DNA of 64,000 nucleotides from Fictibacillus enclensis (GTDB lineage: Bacteria; Bacillota; Bacilli; Bacillales; Fictibacillaceae). Positions within the stretch are counted from its first letter, which is position 1. Every line of letters starts with the position of its first letter. Shown here piece after piece: positions 49,914 to 64,000 of this stretch. Under the pieces are notes generated by a model. That model worked only from the letters and a program-made list of their open reading frames with translations. It was not told where the DNA came from and did not search any database. The stretch spans positions 434,001 through 498,000 of the forward strand of contig NZ_KQ758617.1 in assembly GCF_001457035.1 (NCBI RefSeq), read 5' to 3'. Position numbers and translations under genes: made by a program.

Positions 49914-50576
49914 ATGAGAGAAATATGGGGCAATGTGGATGAGTATTTCATATCAAATCTCCACCCACAGGATATGGTTCTTGAACATGTCCTGCAAGCC
50001 AATCATGAAGCCGGCCTGCCATCGATCGATGTTACGCCCACCCAGGGAAAGTTCCTCTATTTGCTGGCAAAATTAAAAGGAGCAAAACGTATCCTTGAAA
50101 TTGGTACACTTGGTGGTTACAGCAGTATCTGGATGGGCAGGGCACTTCCTGAGGATGGGAAGCTGGTTACGCTGGAATACAGCCAGAAACACGCAGAGGT
50201 TGCGAGGGAAAACATCAAAAAAGCGCGGTTGGAACCCAAAATTGAAATCATGGTGGGACCAGCTCTTGAATCGCTACCCACGTTAAAAGATAAAGGATAT
50301 CCCTCTTTTGATTTCATTTTTATTGATGCCGATAAACCAAACAATCCGCACTACCTAAAGTGGGCTCTTGCTTATTCGCAGCCAGGTACCGTTATTATTG
50401 GAGATAATGTTGTTCGAAACGGAAGAGTGGCAGATCAGAACAATGAGGACCCTGATGTAAAAGGATCTCGCGCCCTCATTGACCTATTAGCCAAAGAGAG
50501 CCGGATTGAAGCCACAGCCCTGCAGACGGTTGGAAGCAAGGGCTATGACGGTTTTGTGATGGGGATTGTGAAATAA
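49914..50576 (+). CDS. SAM-dependent O-methyltransferase (CCoAOMT/MF3 family)
   Basis: A 220-residue class I methyltransferase. The SAM motif I is RILEIGTLGGYSSIWMGRAL (near 60-79), motif II VTLEYSQKHAEVARENI, and FDFIFIDADKPNNPHYLKWAL contains the metal/SAM Asp residues (D..DADK) characteristic of the cation-dependent catechol/caffeoyl-CoA family. GTVIIGDNVVRNGRV follows. It methylates catechol-type or related hydroxyl groups. ATG 49914 is chosen because AAAGGAGGG ends 6 bases upstream; ATG 49878 lies before that site. It is convergent with the YfiT gene, with only 3 bases between them. Confidence 0.9.
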   Translation: MREIWGNVDEYFISNLHPQDMVLEHVLQANHEAGLPSIDVTPTQGKFLYLLAKLKGAKRILEIGTLGGYSSIWMGRALPEDGKLVTLEYSQKHAEVARENIKKARLEPKIEIMVGPALESLPTLKDKGYPSFDFIFIDADKPNNPHYLKWALAYSQPGTVIIGDNVVRNGRVADQNNEDPDVKGSRALIDLLAKESRIEATALQTVGSKGYDGFVMGIVK

Positions 50577-50579
50577 AGG

Positions 50580-51101
50580 TTACCATCCTTCACGTGTACA
50601 AAGAGAAGTAATATGGGAAATATGATGCCTGCTGTGCCAGGAATAGAGACCAATATTTTGGGCGAGTGTTACCACACCCGAATCCGGATGAGTAAATGTT
50701 TTGGTCAGATCATGTGGTGATAGTGATTTGAGAAGCACAACCCACCGGGCATGCAGGTTTTCAAGTAAAGGAAGCGAGATTTCTATGGGAAGCCTGGAGT
50801 CAGGAAGTTCCGCCCATAAAGCCTCTTCGTAGGGTTTAATCACAGGATTCTCTTCTGTAAGTGCAAGCTTGAAACGGATATAGCTGTTCAGGTGGCTGTC
50901 TGCCAGATGGTGAACAACTTGCCTTACTGTCCAGCCGCCGGGACGGTAGGGGGTATCCAATTGAAGGCCGTTCAGGTTTTTAACCGCTTTTTTCAATTCT
51001 TGTGGAGCGGATTCAATGTCTGAGGTCCACTGGTTAATCTCTTTTGACGTGATTTCCTGGTTTATATTAAACAATCCAATCGGATAACGCAAATCCATCA
51101 T
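50580..51101 (-). CDS. YfiT/BstA-like putative bacillithiol transferase
   Basis: A 173-residue DinB-superfamily protein that follows B. subtilis YfiT closely: LRYPIGLFN at the start, [39 protein letters not shown] with the first metal His, and [13 protein letters not shown] with the other two near the C-terminus. YfiT-type proteins bind a divalent metal through three His residues and are annotated as metal-dependent hydrolases or bacillithiol S-transferases that detoxify electrophiles. The ATG at 51101 follows GAAGGGAGACGTTCAA, with a second ATG directly after it. The substrate is unknown. Confidence 0.9.
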
Positions 51102-51250
51102 TTGAACGTCTCCCTTCTCTGATCAAATATACATACCCAGGGCCATCCGTTGTGACCGGCTGGGTTTTTGATGTTTGCTTGCGGTTCAATTCGAATATCA
51201 TTAGTTTATCATTAAAAGCTGATACAGAGCAGGGGGCAGAACACGATAGA

Positions 51251-51847
51251 ATGAACGCCTATTTACAGGGGCTTATAGCTCATATACCACCATTAGATAA
51301 AGGCCAGCGGTTTATTCTTGGAATTGATGGATTAAGCCGTTCAGGTAAAAGCACACTAACCAGGGCGTTGGAAGAACAAATGCACAAAAAAAATATTCCG
51401 TGCTTTACCATACATATAGATGATCATATTGTTGAGAGGAAACATCGCTACAACACGGGGCAAAAGGAATGGAGAGAATACTACTTTTTACAATGGGATA
51501 TAGTTGGGCTCGCTGAAAACTTGTTCCATTTGGTTAAAACTGAAACTCAATTAACTCTTCCTTTTTACCATGAAAAACTCGATTTGCAGATTATGCGTGA
51601 GGTAAGGTTACCTGACAAATGTGTAATTGTTATAGAAGGTGTGTTTTTGCAAAGAAAAGATTGGCGGTCGTTTTTTGATTTCGTTGTGTATCTTGAATGT
51701 GATAGAGAATTAAGGCTATCGAGGGAAGCGGAAGAAACAAAAAAAAACATTGATAAATTTTCAAACCGTTATTGGCCGGCTGAAGATCATTATTTGGCTG
51801 AAGAGCAGCCTTTACGCAAAGCTGATTTGATTTTCAAAATAGGTTAA
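51251..51847 (+). CDS. P-loop nucleoside/nucleotide kinase-like protein (uridine kinase family)
   Basis: About 198 residues with a Walker A GIDGLSRSGKST (near 26-37), IHIDDHIVERKHRYNTGQKEW as the substrate-binding segment similar to uridine kinases, VIVIEGVFLQRKDW as Walker B, and a lid-type REAEETKKNIDKFSNRYWPAEDHY. It would phosphorylate a small hydroxyl substrate with ATP; which one is unknown. The in-frame ATG at 51251 starts the recognisable domain, though its ribosome site (AGGGGG about 15 bases upstream) is poorly spaced, and an upstream start at 51152 cannot be excluded. A bidirectional terminator follows. Confidence 0.8.
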   Translation: MNAYLQGLIAHIPPLDKGQRFILGIDGLSRSGKSTLTRALEEQMHKKNIPCFTIHIDDHIVERKHRYNTGQKEWREYYFLQWDIVGLAENLFHLVKTETQLTLPFYHEKLDLQIMREVRLPDKCVIVIEGVFLQRKDWRSFFDFVVYLECDRELRLSREAEETKKNIDKFSNRYWPAEDHYLAEEQPLRKADLIFKIG

Positions 51848-51876
51848 AGAACCAGCGTTCATCAACGCTGGTTCTC
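51848..51876. terminator. Bidirectional terminator between kinase and hydrolase genes
   Basis: AGAACCAGCGTT (51848-51859) and AACGCTGGTTCT (51864-51875) form a perfect 12-bp stem with the loop CATC. It overlaps the end of the minus-strand hydrolase gene. Confidence 0.85.
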
Positions 51877-52605
51877 TTTATTAAGCCAGGAGAGAATGGT
51901 TTTAAAAATTTCCTCCTGCTGTTTTTTATTTGAAATCTTGGCTTTTTTGTCACCTGCTTGTGTACCGTACATTCCGAACTGGGCGTGGTTTCCGCCTTTT
52001 ATTTCATGATAGGTGGTATCGGTGGGATTGAATTTTTTGCTTCCCTTAATTTTGGCCGGTGTACTGAGGCCATCCCGTTCTCCCGTAATCGAGAGGAGAG
52101 GGAAGTTAGCTTTTGATAAATCCGAGCTTTCGGTCGTGTATGAACCTAAGAAAATCAAGCCCTTGATCTTCTCCTGATGTTTTAGGCTGTAGGAGGCAGA
52201 TGCAGGACCACCGAGAGAGTGACCGCCAATATACCATTTTTGGATGGAAGGGTACAATTTCATCGCCTCTTCTGCTTTATTTTTCCCCAATAGCGCCAGA
52301 TTCAGCGGCATTTCAGGGATGATCACGAGATAGCCTTCGTCTGAGAGTTTTTTCGCCCAATAGGAATACGCTTCAGGTTCTACCTTAGCTCCGGGATAAA
52401 AGATAAAGCCGTCTTTTATGTCTTTGGATTTCGGCTTGTAAATATATAGATCGTCTTTATGCTGTACTTCCTGCTTTAGGTTGACCAGATGGTTTAGCTG
52501 CGAAGTCGGTTTAAAGGTCTGTTTTGACCAAATTAAAAAGCCGCCCGCATAGACAATAAGCACAACCAACACAATGATTAACGCAAATTTTAGCTTCTTA
52601 TTCAA
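51862..52605 (-). CDS. Membrane-anchored alpha/beta hydrolase
   Basis: About 247 residues from TTG 52605, which follows GGAGGATTCAC on the minus strand; a longer frame to 52695 lacks a site. One N-terminal membrane anchor (FALIIVLVVLIVYAGGFLIW) precedes an extracytoplasmic alpha/beta hydrolase of the PF12695 type. FIFYPGAKVEPEAYSYWAK is the oxyanion region, WYIGGHSLGGPASASY has the Ser elbow GHSLGG, ITGERDGLSTPAKI carries the acid, and KGGNHAQFGMYG carries the His. Similar proteins are widespread in bacilli without known substrate. It is probably monocistronic. The gene marks the last ordinary chromosomal gene before the IS remnant and catabolic cluster. Confidence 0.85.
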   Translation of the reverse strand: MNKKLKFALIIVLVVLIVYAGGFLIWSKQTFKPTSQLNHLVNLKQEVQHKDDLYIYKPKSKDIKDGFIFYPGAKVEPEAYSYWAKKLSDEGYLVIIPEMPLNLALLGKNKAEEAMKLYPSIQKWYIGGHSLGGPASASYSLKHQEKIKGLIFLGSYTTESSDLSKANFPLLSITGERDGLSTPAKIKGSKKFNPTDTTYHEIKGGNHAQFGMYGTQAGDKKAKISNKKQQEEIFKTILSWLNKENQR

Positions 52606-52928
52606 GTGAATCCTCCAGATGTTCTTCCACTTAGGAAAGTTAATACCTATTCTAGTATGGACAAAATTCAAACTTCTGACAACAAAAGTGTCCAATTGCC
52701 GAGGCTATCATGAAGTGCCGACACGGAAACTTTTAAAGGCGGAGTTATCATTAAAAACGTCTGGTAATTGTATAATGTTATTCAACTCCCCCGGTAACTA
52801 AGTACTAACGGAACGGGTCTTAGCCCTTTTGTTGAATACACCCAGTACTCCGTACATATTTGAGATTCTGCGAAAACATCAATATTCAATAATATAGTGT
52901 TTGTCATTCACTTAAAATAAAGATAGTT

Positions 52929-53247
52929 TTAAGCAGCTTGTAAGAGATGTATCTTTTCCGGATTATAAACTTTTTGATTCTTGGCATTCCAACGAGAATA
53001 CGAGCGAACTTACCAAGCAGCTTCATCAACGATTTCAATCTGCGCATACCCCTTTCTTGAACATTATAGATATGTCTTGTTTTGAACTCCTGATTGTTGT
53101 TGGTTAAATTCATTGTAGCCATGTAGAGAACCTTCGTAATCGTGACCGTCCTCTTTTAGAAATTACCGTTTGTTCACGCCACTTTCCTGAACTGGCTTCC
53201 ACAAGATTGAGTCCGGCAAGTCTTAATAGGGCATTCCCATGAGAAAA
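52929..53247 (-). pseudogene. Decayed IS110-family transposase, C-terminal fragment
   Basis: Reading the minus strand from 53247, successive frames give GNALLRLAGLNLVEASSGKW, ISKRGRSRLRR, FLYMATMNLTNNNQEFKTRH, KSLMKLLGKFARILVGM and finally KNQKVYNPEKIHLLQAA with a stop at 52929-52931. This order (LAGL..SSGK, KRGR.RLR, then K.L.KL.GK..RIL) is the conserved C-terminal part of IS110-type transposases. At least two frameshifts separate the blocks and the N-terminal DEDD catalytic part is absent, so it cannot function. Intact family members insert without terminal inverted repeats. The remainder of 52606-53681 holds two perfect hairpins and no other supported gene. Confidence 0.75.
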
Positions 53248-53390
53248 CTGAATAAATATAATGAGGACATAACTTGAAAAAGTCACAACTTGTCAACCTT
53301 GACATAGGATAGTTAATAGGAGAAAACACGCAAAAATAAAAGTTCGCTACCTTCTATTTTTAGAGCTTCATTTATATATTTCCCAACGCA

Positions 53391-53433
53391 AAAACCCTGA
53401 ATTCAGGCTTGTTCCGCCGAATTCAGGGTTTTG
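53391..53433. terminator. Perfect 14-bp hairpin, terminator-like
   Basis: AAAACCCTGAATTC (53391-53404) and GAATTCAGGGTTTT (53419-53432) flank a 14-base loop. T or A runs on both sides permit use in either direction, but no intact gene ends here; it may be left from a lost gene. Confidence 0.7.
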
Positions 53434-53593
53434 TTTGGTTGTTGCATTTTAAACCAGAGGTAAGTTTAATATTATCATAAATTTGATCTAACGCTCTGGG
53501 AGTAACAAATCAAGATCACATTATCCGCTTGAAGAACATGTCGACGGTAAAAGCAGTGTTGGCTATATCTAAGTCTTCTCAAAACTAGTAGAA

Positions 53594-53625
53594 AACCACC
53601 GCCTTATTAGCATAAGGCGGTGGTT
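53594..53625 (-). terminator. Terminator of the Nramp-like gene
   Basis: AACCACCGCCTTA (53594-53606) and TAAGGCGGTGGTT (53613-53625) form a perfect 13-bp stem with a 6-base loop. The minus strand continues TTTTC, fitting termination of the transporter transcript. Confidence 0.75.
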
Positions 53626-53681
53626 GCGGTACGACTATTTTTGTTTAATTACGATGATCTGAACGACACCTCTCAGGGTAT

Positions 53682-55007
53682 TTAACTTAGAAAATCAATA
53701 GCCAGTTTGATAGAGGACCAAAGGGCAAGAACGGTACAAGCGACTAACAGCACATTTTCATACCATTTGTTGACATACTGCCCCAATGACTTTTTCTGAT
53801 TCGTCATAATCAGAAGGCCTATGGATATTACTGGTAAACCAACCACGGATAGTATATTTATAAATACGACCAAACTAACGAACCCAGGCATACCTGGAAT
53901 CGACCATATGACCGGAGTAATAAGGATAAACATACTAAACCATTTGAACAATGGATCGTTTTGGGGTTTGTCACCGTATTTTTTCTTACGTTCTTTATTC
54001 GCGGTATGAAGACCATCAATTGCGACTTTCGGAAACACCGTAGCAAAGGCAACCGCACTACTAAATAACCCGCCGATGACACCAAGGTAGAACACAACAA
54101 ATCCGAAAGTGCCTAGATGAACAGCAAGGGCTTGAGCGAGATCTTGAAGACTAGTGATTCGAATACCGTTTGGTTTTAATACCTCCGCTCCAACCACCCA
54201 TACGGCCAGGTCAAGAACGATAGCCACACAAATCGCGAATAACAAGTCTCTACGTTGAAATTTTAAATGAATAGGTTTCGTCCATCCTTTTTCCTTAAAA
54301 CCATATGGGTAGATAAAATTCGCAATAGAGCCAGATACAGCACCTACAAGTGAAATCGCCATTAGAAAGGCACCATATACACCAACATCTTTAGGGATGC
54401 TAAAACCAACTGTTCCTTTTGCAATGGCACCCACATCCGGTGTCGCCATAATGGCTACCAGAATTAAACAAAAGGTTTTGAGTGCGAGTAATAACTTCAT
54501 CCCATTTTCAAGCGTATTATATATACTACGTCCAATTAGAATAAAACCAGCAAGAACGACAATAATAGCCCACATAAAGACATTGCCAAAGCCTAAAAGA
54601 TGCGTTAATCCCTCAGCAGCACCTTTGATCATGTAAGAGTTAAATAAATGGCCCATAATGAGGGCATATCCTCCAAGGAAATAAGGATAGAACTTGTGAA
54701 GGCGGCTGAAACCTTGTATAAGAGTAAGGCCTTCTACGTTACATAGTGTGTACCGTGACATGATGGAGACGATTACATAACGAATGATTAAAGAAAGTGC
54801 GAGGACCCACATGAGGGCATATCCGTAGTGGGCTCCAGCAATGGAAGAGTCAACGAGGTCGCCGGCTCCAAGCCATGCTAGAACAGCAATAACGCCCGGT
54901 CCAAATGAAGCCAATAATTCTTTAAATCTTTGTAATCTAGATTTCGCTGGAAATGCGGTTGACGTTTCAGGCGATAACTCAAGATTCGAATTTGGCTGAT
55001 TTTCCAT
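53682..55007 (-). CDS. Nramp-family transporter with altered metal-site motif
   Basis: A 441-residue membrane protein with about 11 helices and the Nramp (SLC11) fold: FGPGVIAVLAWLGAGDLVDSS in helix 1 and AGAHYGYALMWVLALSLIIRY in helix 2. Canonical Nramp metal transporters have DPGN in helix 1 and MPH in helix 6. Here helix 1 reads LGAGD, and the helix 6 region reads VGAVSGSIANFIYPYG, with no Met or His at the expected place. The ligands for Mn2+ or Fe2+ are therefore missing, as in Nramp-related proteins of other specificity. The start follows TAGGGAGGATTAGTTGA. A palindromic cre site lies 53 bases upstream. Being divergent from a GntR-controlled catabolic operon, it may import that pathway's substrate; this is inference. 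Confidence 0.85.
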   Translation of the reverse strand: MENQPNSNLELSPETSTAFPAKSRLQRFKELLASFGPGVIAVLAWLGAGDLVDSSIAGAHYGYALMWVLALSLIIRYVIVSIMSRYTLCNVEGLTLIQGFSRLHKFYPYFLGGYALIMGHLFNSYMIKGAAEGLTHLLGFGNVFMWAIIVVLAGFILIGRSIYNTLENGMKLLLALKTFCLILVAIMATPDVGAIAKGTVGFSIPKDVGVYGAFLMAISLVGAVSGSIANFIYPYGFKEKGWTKPIHLKFQRRDLLFAICVAIVLDLAVWVVGAEVLKPNGIRITSLQDLAQALAVHLGTFGFVVFYLGVIGGLFSSAVAFATVFPKVAIDGLHTANKERKKKYGDKPQNDPLFKWFSMFILITPVIWSIPGMPGFVSLVVFINILSVVGLPVISIGLLIMTNQKKSLGQYVNKWYENVLLVACTVLALWSSIKLAIDFLS

Positions 55008-55059
55008 TCAACTAATCCTCCCTAAAGTTGATGTTCTAACCATATTTTTTTTCAAACTC

Positions 55060-55074
55060 TTGAAACCGCTTTCA
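55060..55074 (-). promoter_or_regulatory. Palindromic CcpA cre site upstream of the Nramp-like gene
   Basis: TTGAAACCGCTTTCA satisfies the cre consensus WTGNAANCGNWNNCW and extends to the palindrome TTGAAA-ccgc-TTTCAA (55060-55075). It lies 53-67 bases before the transporter start, near the expected promoter. Confidence 0.7.
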
Positions 55075-55093
55075 ATTTTCAGGTGGTATTAAA

Positions 55094-55483
55094 ATGAATT
55101 TGTACCTACTCAGCTCTACAATCTACATTAACAAAATAGAGGCAATTACAGAGACAGAAAGAAACTCAGCAAGCCAAAAATGGTCAGCGTATGCAGATAC
55201 GGTTCGTTTTGGATATGAGCTTAAACTTCTTCTGGAAACGCCTTACGTTCATTCTCATTGCTTTCTATTTCAAAGTGGAGAAGAGGTAAAACAAGAATAC
55301 AAAAGAAACTACCTGGAAGAAGTTACAATATCTATGTATGTTCTAAAAAGAGTGTTTGATAGATGTACGCTAAGTCAAGCCATTGCCTGGCTTGTACCCT
55401 TTCGTCTGGCACGACCATTTTTAATGATGATGTATAACTTCTCTTGTTTTTCTTCAATATCTGATGATATCCCTTTTTACTGA
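55094..55483 (+). CDS. Doubtful 129-codon open frame
   Basis: An open frame of 129 codons exists (MNLYLLSSTIYINKIEAITE onward) but it has no convincing ribosome site, no motif and an unremarkable composition. It lies in the roughly 800-base interval between the divergent Nramp-like and GntR genes. It may be a chance frame or a decayed gene. I list it only so that the interval 55008-55812 is accounted for; besides this frame it holds the cre site and the GntR promoter. Confidence 0.15.
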   Translation: MNLYLLSSTIYINKIEAITETERNSASQKWSAYADTVRFGYELKLLLETPYVHSHCFLFQSGEEVKQEYKRNYLEEVTISMYVLKRVFDRCTLSQAIAWLVPFRLARPFLMMMYNFSCFSSISDDIPFY

Positions 55484-55664
55484 ATGGTCACAAAGCTAAC
55501 TTGGACCCCTCAACCCCTTTTCTGTAACCCCCTTTCGTTTAAACATACGAAAACACTGAGCTTACGAACGTTTCTACTTCCTAAAACAGGGTGTTAGAGT
55601 ACGTCATCGCAATCATGACAGTTACCCGTCTTCACTGATTAGTAGTAGACGTTTACATAAACCA

Positions 55665-55702
55665 TTGCAAATAGTCGTGATGTCTTGTATACTTGTACTC
55701 AA
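55665..55702 (+). promoter_or_regulatory. gntR promoter with overlapping operator
   Basis: TTGCAA (55665-55670), a 17-base spacer and TATACT (55688-55693) are a good sigma-A promoter. TTGTATACTTGTACTCAA (55685-55702), matching 15 of 18 positions of the perfect palindrome at 56538, covers the -10, so the GntR protein probably represses itself. Confidence 0.7.
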
Positions 55703-55812
55703 AGTTTATTTTATATTCAGAATATTGTCAAATTAATATTTTTTTTGGAATTTTAATTGCTGAGTTCAAGATATTCAATAGCAGATTTAGAAAAGGTGGG
55801 AGGAAGCTCACA

Positions 55813-56517
55813 ATGACGAACAGCCCTTTTAAACTGAATTATACAGAAGACCTTAACCTAGACCCTTTAGATCATAATCAAGCGTTTATCCCCCTTGGTG
55901 AAGCCGTGTATCAAAAATTGAAAACAGCCATTGTACAAGGTCACTTAATACCAGGACAGCTATTAAGCGAAAACAAGATTGCAGAAAAGTTAGCTGTGAG
56001 TCGTACACCTGTCCGTGAAGCCATTCGAGTATTGGGATCTAAAAATTTAATTACGTTTCTGCCAGGGAGAAAAGTTATTGTCTCGATCCCGACGGTCCAA
56101 GACATTAAAGAAGTTTTCGAAATTCGCATGCTTTTAGAAACAGAAGCATTGAGGAGAATAACGAACCAACATACAAAAATCATCGAACAAATGGATGAGT
56201 CCGTCCAAATGGGGGAAGCGTACCGTAAACAAGGGGATCTTGTAAAAATGGGTGAGATGAACACTCGTTTCCATCTCACCATTATCTCTGCTCTTGAAAA
56301 CCAAAGAGTGCAACGCTTTATCGATTCACTTCATGAAACCATATCCCGGTTACGTTCTTATTCGCTAACAGCAGAGTGGAAGATCGATAGGGAAAAAGAA
56401 CATAAGGAAATTGTTACGCTCGTAAAAAAGGGCTTTACGGAAGAAGCAGTATCCGTCTTAAAGCAGCATTTAACCACCTCTCAAGAAAATTTACTGACTT
56501 TATTTGCGCAGAAATAA
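55813..56517 (+). CDS. GntR family regulator, FadR/FCD subfamily
   Basis: A 234-residue regulator. The N-terminal GntR winged helix (about residues 30-95) reads AVYQKLKTAIVQGHLIPGQL, then SENKIAEKLAVSRTPVREAI and LITFLPGRKVIVS. The C-terminal FCD all-helical ligand domain has EVFEIRMLLETEALR, the metal/ligand-binding NTRFHLTIIS segment and KEHKEIVTLVKKGFTEEAVSVLKQHL (Asp/His positions of FCD). FCD regulators usually bind carboxylate intermediates of the pathway they control. ATG 55813 is used because GGGAGGA lies 8 bases upstream; the longer frame to 55693 includes the promoter itself. It precedes the amidohydrolase operon by 66 bases, which contain the 18-bp palindrome. Confidence 0.92.
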   Translation: MTNSPFKLNYTEDLNLDPLDHNQAFIPLGEAVYQKLKTAIVQGHLIPGQLLSENKIAEKLAVSRTPVREAIRVLGSKNLITFLPGRKVIVSIPTVQDIKEVFEIRMLLETEALRRITNQHTKIIEQMDESVQMGEAYRKQGDLVKMGEMNTRFHLTIISALENQRVQRFIDSLHETISRLRSYSLTAEWKIDREKEHKEIVTLVKKGFTEEAVSVLKQHLTTSQENLLTLFAQK

Positions 56518-56537
56518 GAGGAAAAAGCTGTTTTTAG

Positions 56538-56555
56538 TTGTATACATGTATACAA
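56538..56555. promoter_or_regulatory. 18-bp perfect palindrome, probable GntR operator
   Basis: TTGTATACATGTATACAA is fully self-complementary and of the TTGTATACAA type used by FadR/FCD regulators. It lies between the gntR stop (56517) and the first amidohydrolase start (56584). TTGTAT here is also spaced 17 bases from TATAGA (56561-56566), so it could overlap a -35 element. Confidence 0.75.
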
Positions 56556-56583
56556 ATTACTATAGAGCAAAGGAGAATAAAAC

Positions 56584-57681
56584 ATGGATGATGCCATAAC
56601 ACTGGAAAAGGAAACCTTGGGCAACCGAGCCAAGACTGCTGTAATCGACTGTGATGTACATAATGCCGTTCCTTCCATACAGGCTCTTTTCCCCTATCTA
56701 CCGGACAGGTGGCGCGATTATGTGGTGGAACACGGAATTAAAAGCTTAGAACCCAATTATTACCCAAGGGGAAGTTCCTTATCTGCAAGGCCCGATTCGG
56801 TATTGCCAAACGGCGATCCTCCGGGTTCGGATCTTGAGGTTTTGCAACGACAGGTGCTGGAACCCTGGAATATGGAATATGCGATCCTTAATTGCCTTTA
56901 CGGCGTACAGATGATCCACAATGAGGATTGGGCGGCAGCCATGGCCCGCGCGGTAAACGATTGGCAGATCGCTGAATGGTTGGATAAAGAACCAAGGCTG
57001 CGTGCCTCAATCGTCGTTGCCAGTCAGAATCCGGAGCAGGCGGCGGAGGAAATTCACCGGTTAGGCAAACATCCCGGTTTCGTACAAGTTCTTTTGATGG
57101 TACGTTCCGAAATGCTCTACGGAAAAAAACATTTCTGGCCGATTTACGAAGCAGCCCAGCAGTATGGGTTAGTGATCGGAATTCATGCGGGTGGGGTTAC
57201 CGGTTATCCAACGATGCCTGTCGGTTGGCCTTCTTATTACCTTGAGGATTACGTCAGTCAATCACAAGCCTTTCAGTCGCAAATCGTCAGCTTGGTATGT
57301 GAAGGTACCTTCCAAAAGTTTCCTCGCCTTCGAGTCGCGCTTCTTGAAAGCGGTTTCACCTGGATGCCCGCACTGATGTGGCGATTGGATAAGAATTGGA
57401 AGGGCCTACGCCGAGAAATTCCATGGGTGGACCGGTTACCGTCAGAGATTATAAGGGAACATTTTCGGTTGACGATCCAGCCGCTAGATGAATCACCAAA
57501 GCCCGAACACTTGCTGCAAACGATGGAACAAATGCGTTCCCAAGACATGCTGCTCTTTTCAACCGATTATCCACATTGGCACTTCGATGAGAAAGAAGAG
57601 GCTCTCCCAGCCAATCTCCCGCCAAGCCTGGAGAAGAAGATTCTATCGGAAAACGCCCGCTCTTTTTACCGTTTTGATTGA
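56584..57681 (+). CDS. Amidohydrolase-2 family (ACMSD-like) enzyme, copy 1
   Basis: A 365-residue TIM-barrel protein of the PF04909 group, which includes 2-amino-3-carboxymuconate semialdehyde decarboxylase, gamma-resorcylate decarboxylase and several ring-derived acid hydrolases. The first strand reads VIDCDVHNAVPS, where classical members have DxHxH, so only one His of the pair is kept and Asp occupies the other place. Further on are ASIVVASQNPEQAAEEI, VIGIHAGG (barrel His), ALLESGFTWMPALMWRLDKNW with the Glu..W pattern and LFSTDYPHWHFDE with the late catalytic Asp. Decarboxylation or hydrolysis of a carboxylated ring-cleavage product is the family norm. The start follows AAAGGAGAATAAAAC, and a paralogue follows 37 bases downstream. 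Confidence 0.88.
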   Translation: MDDAITLEKETLGNRAKTAVIDCDVHNAVPSIQALFPYLPDRWRDYVVEHGIKSLEPNYYPRGSSLSARPDSVLPNGDPPGSDLEVLQRQVLEPWNMEYAILNCLYGVQMIHNEDWAAAMARAVNDWQIAEWLDKEPRLRASIVVASQNPEQAAEEIHRLGKHPGFVQVLLMVRSEMLYGKKHFWPIYEAAQQYGLVIGIHAGGVTGYPTMPVGWPSYYLEDYVSQSQAFQSQIVSLVCEGTFQKFPRLRVALLESGFTWMPALMWRLDKNWKGLRREIPWVDRLPSEIIREHFRLTIQPLDESPKPEHLLQTMEQMRSQDMLLFSTDYPHWHFDEKEEALPANLPPSLEKKILSENARSFYRFD

Positions 57682-57718
57682 TAAATAAAGGGATTATCCC
57701 TAGTGAGGAGGAACATAC

Positions 57719-58834
57719 ATGCCCATTGTAAATACTAAGTCGATAGAGGACAAGCGAAAAACCGGAATCCGTTTCATCGACTGTGATATTCATAATGAAG
57801 TTCCGTCAAACGAGGTGCTTAAACAATATCTTCCGACACGTTGGAAGAATTATATGGATATGGTCGGCCTGCGCGGCTACCATGGCTTTGTTCAAAATAT
57901 TCCATATCCAAAAGGGAATCCGGGTGGGACACGGGCAGACGCCTGGCTGCCGAACGGTCAAATCCCCGGCTCCGACCTAAAGTTCATGCAAGAACAGCTA
58001 TTGGATCCTTTGAATATGGAGATCGGTATCTTAAACTGCCTGTATCGTGTCGGGGAACAGCTGAACGATGAATACGGAGCAGCACTGGCCCGCGCGGTCA
58101 ACGATTGGCAGATGGCCGAATGGCTGGACAAAGAACCGAGGTTGCGCGCATCCATTGTCATCCCGTACGAGAACGCCGATCTGGCGGTAGAAGAAATTAA
58201 TCGGCGCGCTAGCCATCCTGGTTTTGTGCAAGTGTTATTCATGCCCCGTACCCGGGAACCGATGGGTCGTCGCAAATATTGGAAAATCTTTGAGGCGGCG
58301 GAAAACCACGGACTACCAATCGCGATTCATTTTGGAGGTTTGGGTGGAAACGCAATCACCTCTTCTGGATTTCCTTCATTTTATATCGAGGATCACACCG
58401 ACATGGCTCAGGCGTTCCAATGCCAGGTCATTAGTATGGTTTGTGAAGGGGTGTTTGAACGGTTTTCCAACCTGCAAACTGTGATGCTCGAAGGCGGGTT
58501 TGCTTGGGTGCCTTCCTTGATGTGGCGGCTCGACAAGCACTGGAAGCGACTGCGTGAAGAAGTCCCTTTCTTGAAGCGAAAGCCATCCGAATACATTCGA
58601 GGGCATATGCGATTTACCACCCAGCCGATAGAGGAGCCGCCGGTTCAGGACTATCTCCTTCAGGTAATCGATCACCTGGGATCCGATGACATGCTCATGT
58701 TTGCTACTGATTATCCGCACTGGGATTATGATGCACCCGATCATACCTTTCGAGGGAAGTTTCCAGAAACCCTAAAACAGAAAATCTTTTATGAAAACGC
58801 TCGTTCTTTATACCGATTTCCGGAGAAGGAGTGA
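57719..58834 (+). CDS. Amidohydrolase-2 family (ACMSD-like) enzyme, copy 2
   Basis: A 371-residue paralogue of the preceding protein. Shared blocks include FIDCDIHNEVPS at the start, LARAVNDWQMAEWLDKEPRL, IAIHFGGLGG at the barrel His, EGGFAWVPSLMWRLDKHWKR and MFATDYPHWDYD. The N-terminal region (YHGFVQNIPYPKGNPGG) and the specificity loops differ from copy 1, so the two may form a heteromer or act on successive or alternative substrates. It has its own strong ribosome site (GAGGAGGAACATAC) and is followed after 7 bases by a Rieske protein gene. The same substitution in the DxHxH motif occurs in both copies. Reaction is inferred only at family level. Confidence 0.88.
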   Translation: MPIVNTKSIEDKRKTGIRFIDCDIHNEVPSNEVLKQYLPTRWKNYMDMVGLRGYHGFVQNIPYPKGNPGGTRADAWLPNGQIPGSDLKFMQEQLLDPLNMEIGILNCLYRVGEQLNDEYGAALARAVNDWQMAEWLDKEPRLRASIVIPYENADLAVEEINRRASHPGFVQVLFMPRTREPMGRRKYWKIFEAAENHGLPIAIHFGGLGGNAITSSGFPSFYIEDHTDMAQAFQCQVISMVCEGVFERFSNLQTVMLEGGFAWVPSLMWRLDKHWKRLREEVPFLKRKPSEYIRGHMRFTTQPIEEPPVQDYLLQVIDHLGSDDMLMFATDYPHWDYDAPDHTFRGKFPETLKQKIFYENARSLYRFPEKE

Positions 58835-58841
58835 TGAATCT

Positions 58842-59279
58842 ATGAAAAAATACTTTGTGGCAACTGTCGATGAGATCCCACCCGGTCACCGAAAGATCAT
58901 TTCTATTGCCGGGAGGTCTATCGGTATTTTTAACATAAACGGTGAATTTTTTGCCATTCGAAACCGGTGCCCACATGGAGGGGCCCCGCTTTGTGAAGGA
59001 GAATTGTCCGGTTTTGTTCATTCCCCAGTCCCGGGGGAATACACCTACACTCGAAAAGGAGAGATTATCCGCTGTCCATGGCATCAATGGGAATTCGACG
59101 TCAAGACCGGACAATCATGGTTCGATCCAGTCAAAACCCGTGTTCGTTCTTACGACGCGAAGGTCGAACAAGGATGCGCTATCGCTGAATCTACCGGGAC
59201 CAAATTGGAAGAAGGGCCCCACGTGGCGGAAACCTTCCATGTTTCCCTGGACAAAGATTATGTAGTGCTTGAGATGTGA
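58842..59279 (+). CDS. Rieske [2Fe-2S] ferredoxin-like protein
   Basis: A 145-residue single-domain Rieske protein. The cluster ligands are in CPHGGAPLC (CxH, near residue 45) and CPWHQWEFD (CxxH, near 83), with a roughly 30-residue insert between them (VHSPVPGEYTYTRKGEI) longer than in simple ferredoxins. No transmembrane anchor is present, so it is a soluble electron carrier or a subunit of an oxygenase. No Rieske oxygenase alpha subunit lies in the window. ATG 58842 follows AAGGAGTGATGAATCT, overlapping the previous gene's end. Similar proteins accompany amidohydrolase-2 genes in catabolic clusters; here it may shuttle electrons to an oxygenase encoded elsewhere or to the FAD protein downstream. 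Confidence 0.9.
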   Translation: MKKYFVATVDEIPPGHRKIISIAGRSIGIFNINGEFFAIRNRCPHGGAPLCEGELSGFVHSPVPGEYTYTRKGEIIRCPWHQWEFDVKTGQSWFDPVKTRVRSYDAKVEQGCAIAESTGTKLEEGPHVAETFHVSLDKDYVVLEM

Positions 59280-59412
59280 CCTTAAACGTTAAAGGTGAAA
59301 TTTAATGAAGGTTCCATCGCGTAAACCGTGGGGTTTGGAGAGATTTTAGTAAGGAAGGTTATAACGGCTTACTAGCATACTGTTTTGAAAATAAAAAAGG
59401 AGGTCACAAATT

Positions 59413-60780
59413 ATGTTGGACATGGATTGTGATGTATTAGTTATTGGAGGTGGCGTAACAGGCGTAGCCGCGGCGACCGCTGCCGCACGCAATGGTGCCA
59501 ATACGATTCTGCTTGAATCCAAACCGTTTCTGGGTGGTAATGCGACAACAGGACTTTGCTTACATAATTTTATTACACGATACGGTCGTCAAGTTGTGTT
59601 CGGAATCGCCCAGGAAATTGTGGATCGATTGATTAAAATGGGAGGCGCTGTCGGACATATTCCATATGGGGGATTTGTTCATTCTGTCACTCCAGTGGAT
59701 GGAGAACTATTCCGAATCCTATCCACTGAGTTATTAGATGAAGCAGGGGTTACTGTATTTTTAGGGGTAAATGTAGTTGGAACTGTGCGTGACCGAGGAA
59801 ATGTCACGGGCGTTCAAGTTGCGGTAAAGGGTGGGATACGAACCATTAGAGCCAAAACGTACATTGACGCAAGTGGAGATGCTGATGTTGTAGCAGCTGC
59901 CGGCGCAAACTATACGAAGGGCGATCGAAAAACTGGAAAAATGCAGCCTGTTTCGATGGTCCTTCGCTGTTATGGAACCAACAATAAGGAGATCGCTCAA
60001 GCCATCGCCGTCTCTACACCTGCAATGGCCACACGAGCTGACCATCCCGAACCGATTCCTGTTTACTTTAATGGGGCATTCAGTCAATGGAATGATATCA
60101 TTCGTGAGAATCAGATCTTCCCGAATGAAGATCACAAAGTGTTTTTTAATACGGTTTGGCCGAATCACATTAATGTTAACACTTCTGCGGTGGTGGGTAT
60201 TGATGGTACGGATCCCCTTTCGTTATCCCGCGCTACCGTTGAATTAACAAAACAAGTATATCGAATTAGTCAATTTCTAAAAGAAAATGTTCCCGGGTTC
60301 CAAAATGCCTACTTTGTTCCTTCGGCATTTGCAGGTGTAAGGGAAACACGAAGAATTGAAGGACTCTATGAGATTACGGACGAGGATGTTACCATAGGAC
60401 GAAAATTCGAAGATACCATCGGACAAATTTGCTTCCCTGTTGATATTCACGATCCCGATACGGGTCAGGCTTCTTTTTACCAAATCGGAGACGATGGAGC
60501 ATTTGATATTCCGTTCCGGGCATTAATTCCAAAAGGCCTGCAAAATATCCTGGTGGCAGGGAGATGCGTTTCAGCTACATCTTTTGCCAACGGAGCCACT
60601 CGAAATATGGCGCCGTGTTTAGTAATGGGGCAGAGTGCCGGCGTCGCAGCCGCTATGGCATCTCAGCAAAACCTGACTTTTACACAATTGAACATTCATA
60701 AACTTCAGGAAAACCTTGAGGAACAAGGTGTCTATTTAGGAGAACGAAGCAACAAAAGAGTCACACATCCCACCATCTGA
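59413..60780 (+). CDS. FAD-dependent oxidoreductase (PF12831, succinate dehydrogenase flavoprotein-like)
   Basis: A 455-residue flavoprotein. The N-terminal dinucleotide fold is DVLVIGGGVTGVAAATAAAR (residues about 7-26) with ESKPFLGGNATTG, followed by TYIDASGDADVVAAAGA, and a C-terminal FAD contact at NILVAGRCVSATSFANGATR and MGQSAGVAAAMAS. The FAD_oxidored family (PF12831) includes proteins of poorly known function in catabolic clusters. It probably oxidises or reduces a C-C or C-N bond of a pathway intermediate, perhaps coupled to the Rieske protein. AAAGGAGG lies 9 bases before ATG 59413. The 133 bases upstream contain a 14-codon frame (59304-59348) of unclear meaning. It is the last gene of the plus-strand operon. 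Confidence 0.88.
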   Translation: MLDMDCDVLVIGGGVTGVAAATAAARNGANTILLESKPFLGGNATTGLCLHNFITRYGRQVVFGIAQEIVDRLIKMGGAVGHIPYGGFVHSVTPVDGELFRILSTELLDEAGVTVFLGVNVVGTVRDRGNVTGVQVAVKGGIRTIRAKTYIDASGDADVVAAAGANYTKGDRKTGKMQPVSMVLRCYGTNNKEIAQAIAVSTPAMATRADHPEPIPVYFNGAFSQWNDIIRENQIFPNEDHKVFFNTVWPNHINVNTSAVVGIDGTDPLSLSRATVELTKQVYRISQFLKENVPGFQNAYFVPSAFAGVRETRRIEGLYEITDEDVTIGRKFEDTIGQICFPVDIHDPDTGQASFYQIGDDGAFDIPFRALIPKGLQNILVAGRCVSATSFANGATRNMAPCLVMGQSAGVAAAMASQQNLTFTQLNIHKLQENLEEQGVYLGERSNKRVTHPTI

Positions 60781-61005
60781 CTTAAAAAGTAAAAAAGGAA
60801 GATAGGTAGTCTGTAAAAGACAAAAAGGATAGAATTGAGGATGAATCACACCATCTTTTGTACTCTTTTTTTGCAAGTGGTAGATGATTACAGTGGGAGG
60901 CCACCAAAGCCGTTTATACAGTATAGGGAGGACAAGCTGATTGGAAGGGGAAAAGGTCCTCCATTTTTCCAGCTCAGCAAATCCGAACGAATAATAGATA
61001 CTGGC

Positions 61006-61051
61006 AAAACAACAATCGAGGAACCATTATTGGTTCCTCGATTGTTGTTTT
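61006..61051. terminator. Strong bidirectional terminator
   Basis: The arms at 61006-61026 and 61031-61051 are perfectly complementary over 21 bases with loop TTAT, beginning AAAACAACAATCGAGG and ending in T runs. It separates the convergent plus-strand and minus-strand halves of the catabolic cluster. The 225 bases before it (60781-61005) have no supported gene. Confidence 0.9.
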
Positions 61052-61054
61052 GAT

Positions 61055-61768
61055 TCAAGCACCTAATTGTTGGGCTAAATCGATGAAATCTCTTGCTACC
61101 ACATCATAGTTTTCTTCAGGCATTAGATTAGGGATTGCCTCACATCCATACTCCAATGGTCGAAAAACATAAGCTGTTTTCATCCCTAGCTTTTTGGCTG
61201 CCTGTAAGTCATGTTGATGCGCCGCAACCATCATGACTTCATTGGGTTGAAGATCAAGAAAGTCGATAGCCATGTGGTAAACGTTTGGATCGGGTTTGTA
61301 ACTTTTGATCATTTCAGGGGACAAGATCAAATCCCAAGGTAGTCCACTATGTTTTGCCATATTGGTGAGTAAAGATACATTCCCGTTTGATAGTGGACTG
61401 ATTATGAATTTTTGTTTCAAGCGTTGAAGACCTGGAACCGCATCACCCCATGGCTCCAAACGATGCCAGACTCGATTGAGGTGAATGATTTCTTCCTCTG
61501 TTAGATGGTTGATCTCAAATTCATCAAGAAGCTTTCGTAATACCATCAAATGCAATGAATCCAAATTCATCCACGAAAGCTCGCCGCTTAGAATACGATC
61601 CAAGTTGGGACGATAAGCCCCTCGCCAGGCATCAGCAAACTTCGGCGAATTCAGCTCAAGGTCTTTCATCTCATTCAATTTTTCGCATTCTTTAATGATC
61701 GATGATCGATAATCTACAACCGTTCCAAACACGTCGAAGATAAGTGCTTTAAGCCCGTTAGTTTTCAT
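61055..61768 (-). CDS. HAD superfamily hydrolase, haloacid dehalogenase type II
   Basis: A 237-residue protein with the type II L-2-haloacid dehalogenase motif set: nucleophile Asp in LIFDVFGTVVD (near residue 12), SPLSNGN for motif II, Lys in MIKSYKPDPNVYH for motif III, and VMMVAAHQHDLQAAKKLGM for motif IV, where type II dehalogenases have AAHxxDL. These enzymes hydrolyse the C-halogen bond of short 2-haloacids through an ester intermediate. Many family members have other substrates, so dehalogenation is not certain. ATG 61768 follows AAGGATGGTGATGATGAC. It lies 73 bases downstream of the ThDP enzyme gene on the same strand and may be co-transcribed. Confidence 0.88.
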   Translation of the reverse strand: MKTNGLKALIFDVFGTVVDYRSSIIKECEKLNEMKDLELNSPKFADAWRGAYRPNLDRILSGELSWMNLDSLHLMVLRKLLDEFEINHLTEEEIIHLNRVWHRLEPWGDAVPGLQRLKQKFIISPLSNGNVSLLTNMAKHSGLPWDLILSPEMIKSYKPDPNVYHMAIDFLDLQPNEVMMVAAHQHDLQAAKKLGMKTAYVFRPLEYGCEAIPNLMPEENYDVVARDFIDLAQQLGA

Positions 61769-61841
61769 GTCATCATCACCATCCTTTTATATGAATAGAT
61801 CCATACATTAACAATAAGTATAGAGATGTTTCACTCTATTA

Positions 61842-63524
61842 CTACGCTTTTAATAACTGCACCTTTGCTTTTCGTAAATCCTCTATTGTAGCGGAAACTG
61901 AAATTTGTTCAGGGCTTATCGCCACTTCAATAATGGAAGGTTTACCTGACTGGAGTGCTCGAGTAAACGCTGCCTCAAATTCTTCGTTAGAATCGATGTA
62001 CTCACCATGGCCACCAAACAATTTAGCCAATTGGGCGTAGTCAGGATTTGTGAGCAACGTCCCGGAAATTCGCTCAGGATACTCGCGTTCTTGGTGCATC
62101 CGAATGGTGCCGTACATATTGTTATTAAAGACTAACGCGATAACAGGAACCTTATAACGAACGGCTGTTTCAAATTCTTGCATGGTCATCATAAAACCGC
62201 CATCACCGGATAAGGAAACCACAACACGATCGGGATGTGCTAATTTAGCTCCAACTGCAGCGGGAAAACCATAACCCATGGCACCATTTGTCGGGCCAAT
62301 ATAGGTTCCAGGTTGTTCAAACTGGTAAAATTGGTGTAGCCAGCCACAAAAGTTTCCTGCATCGTTTGTTATAATGGCATCTGCAGGCGTTAGACGCTGA
62401 AGATCGGCTAAGAGTTTCTTCATATTTAATTTGCCACTTTGATCTAATTCGTCATGAATCCATTGACCGTACAAACGGCGACGCTCGGAAATCCAATCCA
62501 GACGTTCTTTTTTAGTTTCTGGTTGATATTGGTTAGAAGCTTCAACTAACGCATTTAGTGCTTCTCCTGCATCTGCTACAATACCAAGAGCTGGATTATA
62601 TACTTTACCGATACTATTTGGGTCAATATCAATATGAATAATCGTTTGCTCCTTTGAAAATAACGAGTACCCTTGTGTGACAATTTCTGAAAAACGCATC
62701 CCCACTGCCACAATCAGATCAGCAGTTTTCACTGTTTCTAATATATTCTTAGGCGTACCCAGTCCAATATGGCCTAAATACTGCGAATGGTGGTTTGGAA
62801 ATACATCATGGCGGCGGAAAGACGATAAAACAGGTAAAGCCATGGATTCCGCAAATTGAATCAATGGTTCGTGTGCGCCGCTACGAACTACACCGCCACC
62901 AGCAATCATAATAGGATGCTTGGCCTGAGAAATGAGAGAAAGTGCCCGAGCCACTTCATCTTTGCCTGGAGCTGGCTTTGGAATAGTGATGACTTGGCCT
63001 ATTTCCATTTCCACTTCTGCATCGATGACATCCACTGGCAATCCGACCACAACCGGACCCGGTCTACCGCTTTTAGCAATCCGAAAAGCCCGTTGAACCA
63101 GCTCCGGAATTCGATGGGTGTCCGTAATTTCAATGGTCCACTTTGAAATCGGTGCAAAAAAGTTTTCTTGATTGACCTCCTGGAACCCTTCCCGTGTCCG
63201 AAAATGACTATGTACTTGTCCTAAAAACACCACCATAGGGGTTGAATCTTGCATAGCGGTATGGACACCGATAGAGAGGTTCGCTCCGCCTACACCTCTT
63301 GTAGCCATACAAACGCCGGGCTTATTGGTTGCCTTCGCATATCCTTCTGCCATAAAACTGGCTCCGCCTTCGTGGCGAGCGGAAATCAGGTTTATTTCCT
63401 CCGTTTCATAGATTGCATCTAATACACTTAGATAGCTTTCACCTGGCACACAAAAAACTTGATCCACGCCTTCTCTTCGAATACATTCAACCACCGCTTG
63501 AGCACCAGTCATTTTCTTTTTCAT
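61842..63524 (-). CDS. ThDP-dependent enzyme, acetolactate synthase-like
   Basis: About 560 residues with the three-domain acetohydroxyacid synthase layout: FCVPGESYLSVLDAI, the activating Glu in ARHEGGASFMAEGYAKATNK (near 52), a middle domain with AGGGVVRSGA, and the C-terminal ThDP/Mg site SLSGDGGFMMTMQEFETAVR..NNNMYGTIRMHQE. It is probably a catabolic relative (acetolactate synthase, glyoxylate carboligase, oxalyl-CoA decarboxylase or sulfoacetaldehyde acetyltransferase types) rather than the biosynthetic IlvB, since no small subunit follows. ATG 63524 follows AAGGAGTGAACGAAAC and overlaps the preceding gntR stop as ATGA, so the two are translationally coupled. The alternative in-frame ATG 63557 lies inside gntR. 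Confidence 0.9.
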   Translation of the reverse strand: MKKKMTGAQAVVECIRREGVDQVFCVPGESYLSVLDAIYETEEINLISARHEGGASFMAEGYAKATNKPGVCMATRGVGGANLSIGVHTAMQDSTPMVVFLGQVHSHFRTREGFQEVNQENFFAPISKWTIEITDTHRIPELVQRAFRIAKSGRPGPVVVGLPVDVIDAEVEMEIGQVITIPKPAPGKDEVARALSLISQAKHPIMIAGGGVVRSGAHEPLIQFAESMALPVLSSFRRHDVFPNHHSQYLGHIGLGTPKNILETVKTADLIVAVGMRFSEIVTQGYSLFSKEQTIIHIDIDPNSIGKVYNPALGIVADAGEALNALVEASNQYQPETKKERLDWISERRRLYGQWIHDELDQSGKLNMKKLLADLQRLTPADAIITNDAGNFCGWLHQFYQFEQPGTYIGPTNGAMGYGFPAAVGAKLAHPDRVVVSLSGDGGFMMTMQEFETAVRYKVPVIALVFNNNMYGTIRMHQEREYPERISGTLLTNPDYAQLAKLFGGHGEYIDSNEEFEAAFTRALQSGKPSIIEVAISPEQISVSATIEDLRKAKVQLLKA

Positions 63525-64000
63525 GTTTCGTTCACTCCTTGTTTGTTCTCTTTGCAAAACGAGAGGGTACGTCGTATATGGTCACGCATCGCTTCTTCAG
63601 CACCATCCGGATCGTTTGAACCAACTTTGGTAAATATTAAATGATGCTCTTCATAGGCACGGTCAAGTTCATTGACATTAGCTAATGCGTGCTTTCTAAC
63701 GACATTAGCAAAGGCCTTTAGGGAAGTTATCTGTTTTTCGATATAATCATTTTTCGCTGCCTTGATAATGAAGTGATGGAATGCTTCATTACTTTTCCTT
63801 AATCCATCGCTGTTTTTAGCCACCGTATAAACTTCCATTTGTTCTATGATGGTACCCAGCTGTTTTTTTTGCTCCTCTGTAATCTTGGACGCGGCCAAGC
63901 GGGCAGCTACTCCCTCAAGCGAGGATCTCGCTAACGTGATCTCTTCCACCGACTTCATAATTTGGGTGGAAACAAAGGTACCCCTTCTTGGACGAGTATA
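63521..64000 (-). CDS. GntR family regulator, FCD domain (partial, runs off window)
   Basis: Coding continues from the window end: upstream of the ATG at 63958 the frame reads YTRPRRGTFVSTQI, the wing of a GntR DNA-binding domain, so that ATG is internal and the start lies beyond 64000. The visible part is the FCD ligand-binding domain, with ITLARSSLEGVAARLAASKI, EAFHHFIIKAAKNDYIEKQI and DRAYEEHHLIFTKVGSNDPDGAEEAMRDHIRRTL (Asp/His metal-ligand positions). It is coupled to the ThDP enzyme gene by an ATGA overlap and probably controls the minus-strand operon. It is a second FCD regulator, different from the one at 55813. Confidence 0.88.
   Translation of the reverse strand, partial: YTRPRRGTFVSTQIMKSVEEITLARSSLEGVAARLAASKITEEQKKQLGTIIEQMEVYTVAKNSDGLRKSNEAFHHFIIKAAKNDYIEKQITSLKAFANVVRKHALANVNELDRAYEEHHLIFTKVGSNDPDGAEEAMRDHIRRTLSFCKENKQGVNET

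Follow-up and report, generated by a model that had tools for sequence, protein, structure and literature searches.

A putative catabolic gene cluster of Fictibacillus enclensis with two predicted amidohydrolase-related dinuclear oxygenases, their Rieske proteins and an Nramp-related permease

The DNA studied here, called the window, is a stretch of 64,000 nucleotides from the 4.5-Mb genome of Fictibacillus enclensis (contig NZ_KQ758617.1, positions 434,001 to 498,000; G000:C1:434001-498000). The last part of the window was found to contain two convergent gene sets, the second of which continues past the window end. An earlier sequence-only reading had named here paired amidohydrolases, a Rieske protein, an FAD oxidoreductase, a type II HAD hydrolase (HAD-II), a thiamin diphosphate (ThDP) enzyme, an odd Nramp transporter and two FCD regulators, and profile searches of the window identified all of them as open frames with the families named. 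The two amidohydrolase-like proteins, A1 and A2, are predicted in our study to be the subunits of an amidohydrolase-related dinuclear oxygenase (ARO). The features of the system in the window are as follows (window coordinates).

53682-55007, minus strand: Nramp-related permease, 441 amino acids; PF01566 at 139.6 bits, with GAGD instead of DPGN in transmembrane segment 1 (TM1) and without MPH in TM6
55813-56517, plus strand: GntR/FCD regulator 1, PF00392 and PF07729; open frame from 55693, the likely ATG at 55813 being judged from the frame
56584-57681, plus strand: A1, predicted AibH1-type (auxiliary, alpha') subunit of an ARO; PF04909, AibH1 clade (100/98), PDB matches
57719-58834, plus strand: A2, predicted AibH2-type (catalytic, alpha) subunit of an ARO; PF04909, AibH2 clade (100/99), ligands kept
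58842-59279, plus strand: Rieske [2Fe-2S] ferredoxin 1 (Rieske1), PF00355, motif CPH...CPWH; presumed start within an open frame from 58791
59413-60780, plus strand: FAD-dependent oxidoreductase, FAD_oxidored PF12831, E 7e-107
61005-61052, no strand: bidirectional terminator-like hairpin, a perfect 22-bp inverted repeat with a 4-base loop
61055-61768, minus strand: HAD type II hydrolase (dehalogenase or epoxide-hydrolase type), TIGR01428 at 162.8 bits against a cut-off of 125.4
61842-63524, minus strand: ThDP enzyme of the PRK08199 subfamily, 751 bits against a cut-off of 539; open frame from 63557
63521-64000, continuing to 64240 (G000:C1:498240), minus strand: GntR/FCD regulator 2, whole frame 239 amino acids

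Among the PDB entries, the highest score of A1 was 316 bits with 8SM7, followed by 303 with AibH1, 260 with AibH2, 62 with PtmU3 and 51 with the best decarboxylase. Similarly, A2 scored 308 bits with 8SM7, followed by 295 with AibH2 and 215 with AibH1. As crystal-chain matches, A1 was aligned to AibH1 at E 3e-89 and A2 to AibH2 at E 6e-87, the top match of both being 8SM7. The identity to AibH1 and AibH2 was 42-43% (A2 to AibH2, 43%). A1, A2 and A3, a third protein of this fold encoded beyond the window end, all exceeded the PF04909 cut-off, and a small Rieske gene with the CxH...CxxH motif adjoins the ARO genes in both halves of the cluster. The 2-aminoisobutyrate monooxygenase of Rhodococcus wratislaviensis has three components, of which AibH1H2 is the hydroxylase (PMC7782822). 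AibH1H2 requires a Mn/Fe cofactor, for which AibH2 supplies the six binding residues (PMC10401708). Enzymes of this class have been known since 2021; a 2024 paper named them AROs and detected them by the neighbouring Rieske gene (PMC10811679; here and below, papers are cited from the parts of their text available to us). One subunit was found in each of the AibH1 and AibH2 clades, with the two genes adjacent, and A1/A2 is very probably an AibH1H2-type ARO, with predicted activity and complex formation.

This assignment bears on a difficulty of the sequence-only reading, in which no oxygenase was present and the Rieske protein was hard to place. The Rieske protein is explained since A1/A2 would themselves be the oxygenase and a Rieske neighbour is the mark by which the ARO class was found; Rieske1 is the predicted electron donor, similar to AibG. 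No large Rieske oxygenase alpha subunit was found among the cluster genes, the remaining genome not having been searched for one. The same reading had taken the amidohydrolases for hydrolases or decarboxylases acting on ring-cleavage products, with the Rieske protein serving an oxygenase elsewhere. PF04909 does include decarboxylases, those for gamma-resorcylate and 5-carboxyvanillate were matched at E of about 1e-12, and PtmU3, an acknowledged ARO, likewise scores low. However, the AibH and SM-series AROs scored 222-316 bits with A1 and the decarboxylases at most 51, the six dinuclear ligands are present, and the pair with its Rieske gene recurs in order at many loci, as described below. We therefore regard a hydrolase or decarboxylase pair as very improbable, and no support for aromatic ring degradation was seen in the neighbourhoods examined.

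The roles of the two subunits were studied in a tree of 43 proteins, which contained 14 A1-type, 14 A2-type and 15 homomeric-type rows. A1 was grouped with AibH1 (100/98), A2 with AibH2 (100/99), and A3 with SfbO, 8SM7, 8SM8 and 8SM9 (100/98). The AibH1 and AibH2 clades formed one sister-type pair across Bacillota, Actinomycetota, Pseudomonadota, Chloroflexota and Poribacteria, with AibH1 and AibH2 themselves on long branches inside their clades. The AibH2 ligands D25, H27, H211, E265, D337 and H340 correspond to D23, H25, H204, E258, D331 and H334 of A2, which also contains D336, its counterpart of AibH2 Asp342. These six dinuclear metal ligands were complete in all A2 rows (14 of 14) and all homomeric rows (15 of 15, A3 included); in the A1 rows two ligand positions vary, the histidine being lost in 2 of 14 rows at each. 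The position of the second-sphere residue Asp342 of AibH2 was occupied by Asp in 29 of 29 catalytic-type rows and by His (8) or Gln (6) in all 14 A1 rows, seven of which came from a pattern scan favouring His or Gln at this position. The other seven, free of this bias, are those of the window, Peribacillus cavernae, AibH1 and four plasmid rows, and A1 of the window carries His. In AibH2, the D342A mutation diminished the activity while the metals were retained (PMC10401708), and a review describes AibH1 as auxiliary (PMC12141560). The Asp342 pattern, the ligand conservation and the D342A effect together suggest that A2 is probably the catalytic and A1 probably the auxiliary, non-catalytic subunit. 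In Actinopolymorpha and Microlunatus, AibH1-type subunits were observed that had lost metal-binding histidines (DQYEDHQ and DQQEDHQ, respectively), as expected of a non-catalytic subunit.

The spread of the A1-A2-Rieske module was examined in 83 A1 loci, 80 from genome contigs and three from plasmids. The genome-contig relatives were found by the patterns DYPHW[HQ]F and WPIY[AE]AA[EQ], the best 80 of 565 being kept; many of these 80 are from Poribacteria or Acetobacteraceae and are hence non-independent. Neighbouring genes were counted by tblastn. A1, A2 and the Rieske gene were adjacent and in order in 44 of the 83 loci, from several phyla; when only the 76 loci whose DNA extends 2.5 kb or more past A1 were considered, the number was 42. 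Regardless of position within the locus, A2 was present in 68 and Rieske1 in 50 of the 83. A Rubrobacter metagenome-assembled genome (MAG) contained A1 (72%), A2 (66%), Rieske (63%) and FAD oxidoreductase (75%) in identical order, and in Saccharopolyspora soli a relative (35%) of the Nramp-related gene came next after A1-A2-Rieske. In P. cavernae a single strand carried Rieske2-A3-A1-A2-Rieske1 in this order, and an Nramp-related gene (64%) adjoined them. The heteromeric ARO type is rare in Bacillales, since A1 relatives above 53% identity were found among 397 Bacillales genomes only in the window genome and in P. cavernae (86%). P. cavernae was found to contain at least seven ARO-type genes in one genome (contigs C1 and C24), one of which shares a stretch of 18 kb with genes for KdgD, an FCD regulator, a tripartite transporter and a ThDP enzyme of PRK08199 type. 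The sequence-only reading had expected co-occurrence of the genes in other genomes; the sub-blocks do recur and the full set was not seen, in searches that did not cover HAD-II and the 2-hydroxyacid dehydrogenase described below genome-wide.

The minus-strand genes of the second half were found to reach G000:C1:503124, 5.1 kb beyond the window. The features past the window end are the following.

C1:498694-500031, minus strand: second permease, 445 amino acids; no Pfam or NCBIfam match at E 0.001
C1:500295-500720, minus strand: second Rieske protein (Rieske2)
C1:500757-501983, minus strand: A3, third PF04909 protein, predicted homomeric-type ARO
C1:502144-503124, minus strand: D-2-hydroxyacid dehydrogenase, closest to glyoxylate reductase (433 bits, below the curated cut-off of 455)

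Beyond the dehydrogenase gene comes a fragment that weakly matches FAD oxidoreductases. The convergent sets are separated by the hairpin, whose arms lie at 61005-61026 and 61031-61052 and which was absent from the output of a simple terminator scan. The terminator shared by both sets had earlier been given as 21 bp; the hairpin stands, with a length of 22 bp. Each set has its own GntR/FCD regulator, as had been noticed, and both sets may be operons, judging by their spacing and strand; the likely start of the ThDP gene at 63524 overlaps the stop of regulator 2. No Rfam match was found within 50000-64000.

A3 scored 390 bits with 8SM7, at 51.5% identity. It lies in the clade of SfbO, 8SM7, 8SM8 and 8SM9, with an identical ligand set and its own Rieske gene, and is very likely an ARO. 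The native substrates of these proteins could not be inferred in the 2024 paper (PMC10811679), and unlike the present case, no pairing of these enzymes with an AibH1H2-type ARO was found described in the parts of the literature available to us. In three genomes of three families (G197, G115 and G319), an ARO and a Rieske gene were accompanied, within about 10 kb, by a 2-hydroxyacid dehydrogenase (37-39%) and by a second-permease relative (24-26%); G115 encodes an ARO with 93% identity to 8SM9, and FCD regulators were present in two of the three stretches. This co-occurrence supports the prediction that the second permease, the 2-hydroxyacid dehydrogenase, A3 and Rieske2 form one working set. 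A fourth PF04909 ARO of the homomeric clade, with its own Rieske gene, was observed elsewhere in the same genome (G000:C1:2019058-2020095).

These three stretches are without A1A2, and they are consistent with the view that only A1, A2, Rieske1 and the FAD oxidoreductase form a functional unit, the minus-strand genes being an unrelated neighbour pathway that also uses an ARO. The separate regulators and strands fit this view, as does the Rubrobacter MAG, in which the four genes stand alone (the contig ends there). In P. cavernae, however, A3 and Rieske2 adjoin A1A2 on the same strand. A four-gene unit is plausible though somewhat doubtful, and we lean towards A1A2 and A3 acting in one pathway.

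The permease at 53682-55007 is a non-canonical Nramp-related protein, a PF01566 member in which both DPGN and MPH are missing (the transporter earlier called odd); the genome holds a separate, canonical MntH-like gene with both motifs. The closest solved structure by sequence is PDB 7QIA (64 bits), which we take to be EleNRMT, an Nramp-related Mg transporter. Unlike the permease, which has Gly at this place in TM1, 7QIA has Asp. Relatives of the GAGD type (E up to 1e-50) were found at 18 places in 15 of the 397 Bacillales genomes, the window included. At eight of the 18 places a 2-hydroxyacid dehydrogenase was present within 0.1 kb (five of these places being from one genus and two from another); the two dehydrogenases tested were closest to GhrB, below its cut-off. 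Six places, one of them common with these eight, contained glucarate, galactonate or tetronate-type genes in the stretch, three were near AROs, and two contained none of these markers. The curated cut-offs for glucarate dehydratase, KdgD and galactonate dehydratase were reached in those stretches, and that of the D-threonate kinase model was not. When 24 Bacillales ARO stretches, our own choice from the places found in the 397-genome search, were examined with the same markers, galactonate dehydratase was found once and a 2-hydroxyacid dehydrogenase in four, whereas none of the stretches gave KdgD, glucarate dehydratase, PdxA or DUF1537.

According to a 2026 preprint, the Nramp-related groups apart from the NRMT-like and MntG groups are uncharacterised (PMC12873925). 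PxpT, of the Nramp family, is required for growth on 5-oxoproline (PMC13274462), whereas YcsG of B. subtilis is reported as a Mn importer (PMC10448178). Both are likened to the permease here by description only, as Nramp-family proteins encoded in catabolic (5-oxoproline) operons. Among the literature matches listed, no title pointed to a sugar-acid role for Nramp proteins. One explanation is that manganese for the Mn/Fe cofactor, and not a substrate, enters through the Nramp-related protein, in line with the need of AibH1H2 for Mn (PMC10401708) and with the report on YcsG. Against this stand the missing DPGN and MPH motifs and the canonical MntH-like gene elsewhere in the genome, the 13 of 18 places at which the relatives have a 2-hydroxyacid dehydrogenase next to them or sugar-acid genes nearby, with no ARO, and the requirement of PxpT for growth on 5-oxoproline, and we consider manganese import unlikely. 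Because the canonical motifs are missing and the relatives lie beside 2-hydroxyacid dehydrogenase or sugar-acid genes, the permease appears to be an organic-acid carrier rather than a manganese importer, a preference that we hold with some caution.

The class of substrate is named with similar reserve: a small hydroxy-, keto- or branched carboxylic acid seems a better candidate than an aromatic one. More speculatively, the clade of GAGD-like, MPH-less Nramp-related proteins might carry hydroxy-, keto- and sugar acids, and here might feed two successive C-H hydroxylations, by the heteromeric A1A2 and the homomeric A3. The sugar-acid markers were present in few of the 83 A1 loci (GalD in four, DUF1537 in two, KdgD in one and PdxA in one). 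Two other pathways had been considered and dropped. Tetramethylpyrazine degradation by tpd genes was the initial guess; TpdA is a putative flavin monooxygenase, and the available part of the source contains no mention of an amidohydrolase or Rieske protein. In the riboflavin pathway with Rieske and thiamin enzymes, the Rieske dioxygenase has alpha and beta subunits, according to the part available.

In common with AibH1H2GF of R. wratislaviensis, the cluster encodes one PF04909 subunit each of the AibH1 and AibH2 types and, after them, a small Rieske ferredoxin; A2 retains the catalytic ligands and A1 carries the auxiliary signature. It may thus be asked whether the genes encode the known 2-aminoisobutyrate pathway, the more so as the aib cluster includes AibN, an NAD(P)/FAD-dependent oxidoreductase of unknown function (PMC7782822), to which the FAD oxidoreductase can be likened by description only. 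However, judged against Table 1 of that paper, no counterparts of AibD1, AibE, AibC and AibA (methylserine, aldehyde and alanine dehydrogenases and a decarboxylase similar to serine hydroxymethyltransferase) were found among the cluster genes. The identity to AibH1 and AibH2 is only 42-43%, both of these lie on long branches, and the cluster contains a second ARO and other enzymes instead of an AibF-type reductase and the Aib pathway genes. It is highly improbable that the cluster is the Aib pathway. The regulated gene set is by its content probably catabolic and probably acts on a carboxylated compound, as the sequence-only reading had proposed, and no assignment of the neighbourhood to a characterised pathway was found in the accessible text of the literature searched.

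We put at about 0.8 the probability that these genes form a catabolic system centred on two dinuclear monooxygenases of the amidohydrolase fold. Several findings weigh against it. A2 was not found within the available DNA at 15 of the 83 A1 loci, nine of which are Poribacteria MAG loci with an AibH1-type and no AibH2-type gene. No AibF-type FMN/2Fe-2S reductase, nor any other ferredoxin reductase, was found among the cluster genes. Copies of the FAD oxidoreductase (80-82%) were present in a P. cavernae stretch without an ARO. Marker scans that covered 83 A1 and 24 Bacillales ARO stretches gave no match to HAD-II, and for the ThDP enzyme they gave matches of 25-32% in four of these 107 stretches (two A1, two Bacillales); since matches are so scarce, the membership of both enzymes rests mainly on their position. 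Sugar-type ABC permeases were found within 4 kb in 7 of 86 A1 loci (14 matches near, in 590 kb, against 4 further out, in 644 kb), a context that is suggestive and too weak to name a substrate.

The closest solved relatives of HAD-II were a haloacid dehalogenase (221 bits) and a cis-epoxysuccinate hydrolase (185 bits), and it is possibly a dehalogenase. In P. cavernae, an ARO and a 55% relative of the ThDP enzyme are about 4 kb apart. Relatives of this enzyme at E up to 1e-150 were present in 78 of the 397 Bacillales genomes, and nine stretches inspected by eye contained varied amino-acid, peptide and acid contexts, which were of no help in narrowing the substrate.

As to the electron supply, the AibF-type reductase gene comes after the Rieske gene in the aib cluster of Rhodococcus (PMC7782822). 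A PDR/VanB-type reductase gene was found after the Rieske gene in Rhodococcus pseudokoreensis and near the A1/A2 pair in Microvirga terrae, and a thioredoxin-reductase-like flavoprotein in 10 of the 24 Bacillales ARO stretches. Elsewhere in this genome, at G000:C2:467475-468443, a flavin reductase is encoded that is 62% identical to the one in Bacillales ARO clusters, and a general flavin reductase outside the cluster probably serves the Rieske proteins. Among the Bacillales, clusters of a homomeric ARO and a Rieske gene with the thioredoxin-reductase-like flavoprotein were observed at loci including L184, L191, L193, L194, L197, L198 and L199. An aldehyde dehydrogenase similar to that of L197 was present in 11 of the 24 stretches (eight at 69% identity or more) and a BCCT transporter in five. 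The L197 proteins exceeded the NCBIfam cut-offs for betaine-aldehyde dehydrogenase (712 against 668.6) and glycine betaine transporter (652.4 against 650). These clusters may possibly encode an oxygenase of choline or another quaternary amine; no title of this kind was found among the literature matches listed.

In the proposed mechanism, the permease would import an organic acid, which the FCD regulators would sense. A2 would bind the dinuclear centre (Mn/Fe or Fe2), with A1 as its non-catalytic partner and the Rieske ferredoxin as electron donor, and would hydroxylate an unactivated C-H bond at the expense of O2 and of reductant drawn from NAD(P)H. Another oxidation would probably fall to A3 and the Rieske protein encoded beside it. 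Most likely, the FAD oxidoreductase would then oxidise an intermediate of the pathway, before steps by the ThDP enzyme, HAD-II and the D-2-hydroxyacid dehydrogenase, and together these enzymes would convert the hydroxylated acid to central metabolites.

Outside the system, the decayed insertion sequence (IS) noticed earlier beside the cluster was confirmed as an IS110-type remnant.

about 53110-53290 (by eye), minus strand: IS110-family transposase remnant, PF02371, E 2.5e-8

Within the genome, the remnant region (631 bases) gave matches only to its own position and to a single other stretch, of 53 bases. A further hairpin, with T-rich sequence after it, was observed by eye at window 53397-53430, between the remnant and the Nramp-related gene.

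AROs as such are a known class, and in the accessible ARO literature no cluster was found described that combines a heteromeric with a homomeric ARO and an Nramp-related permease; the term 'Nramp' does not occur in the available text of PMC10401708 and PMC10811679. The apparent paradox of a Rieske ferredoxin without an oxygenase is removed by this assignment, and AROs are easily mistaken for hydrolases. A single residue, at the position of AibH2 Asp342, sets the catalytic-type apart from the auxiliary-type subunits and is directly testable. For the search for a new native substrate of AROs, the cluster offers a defined set of genes. If the Nramp-related permease does carry organic acids, a metal-transport fold would gain a further role.

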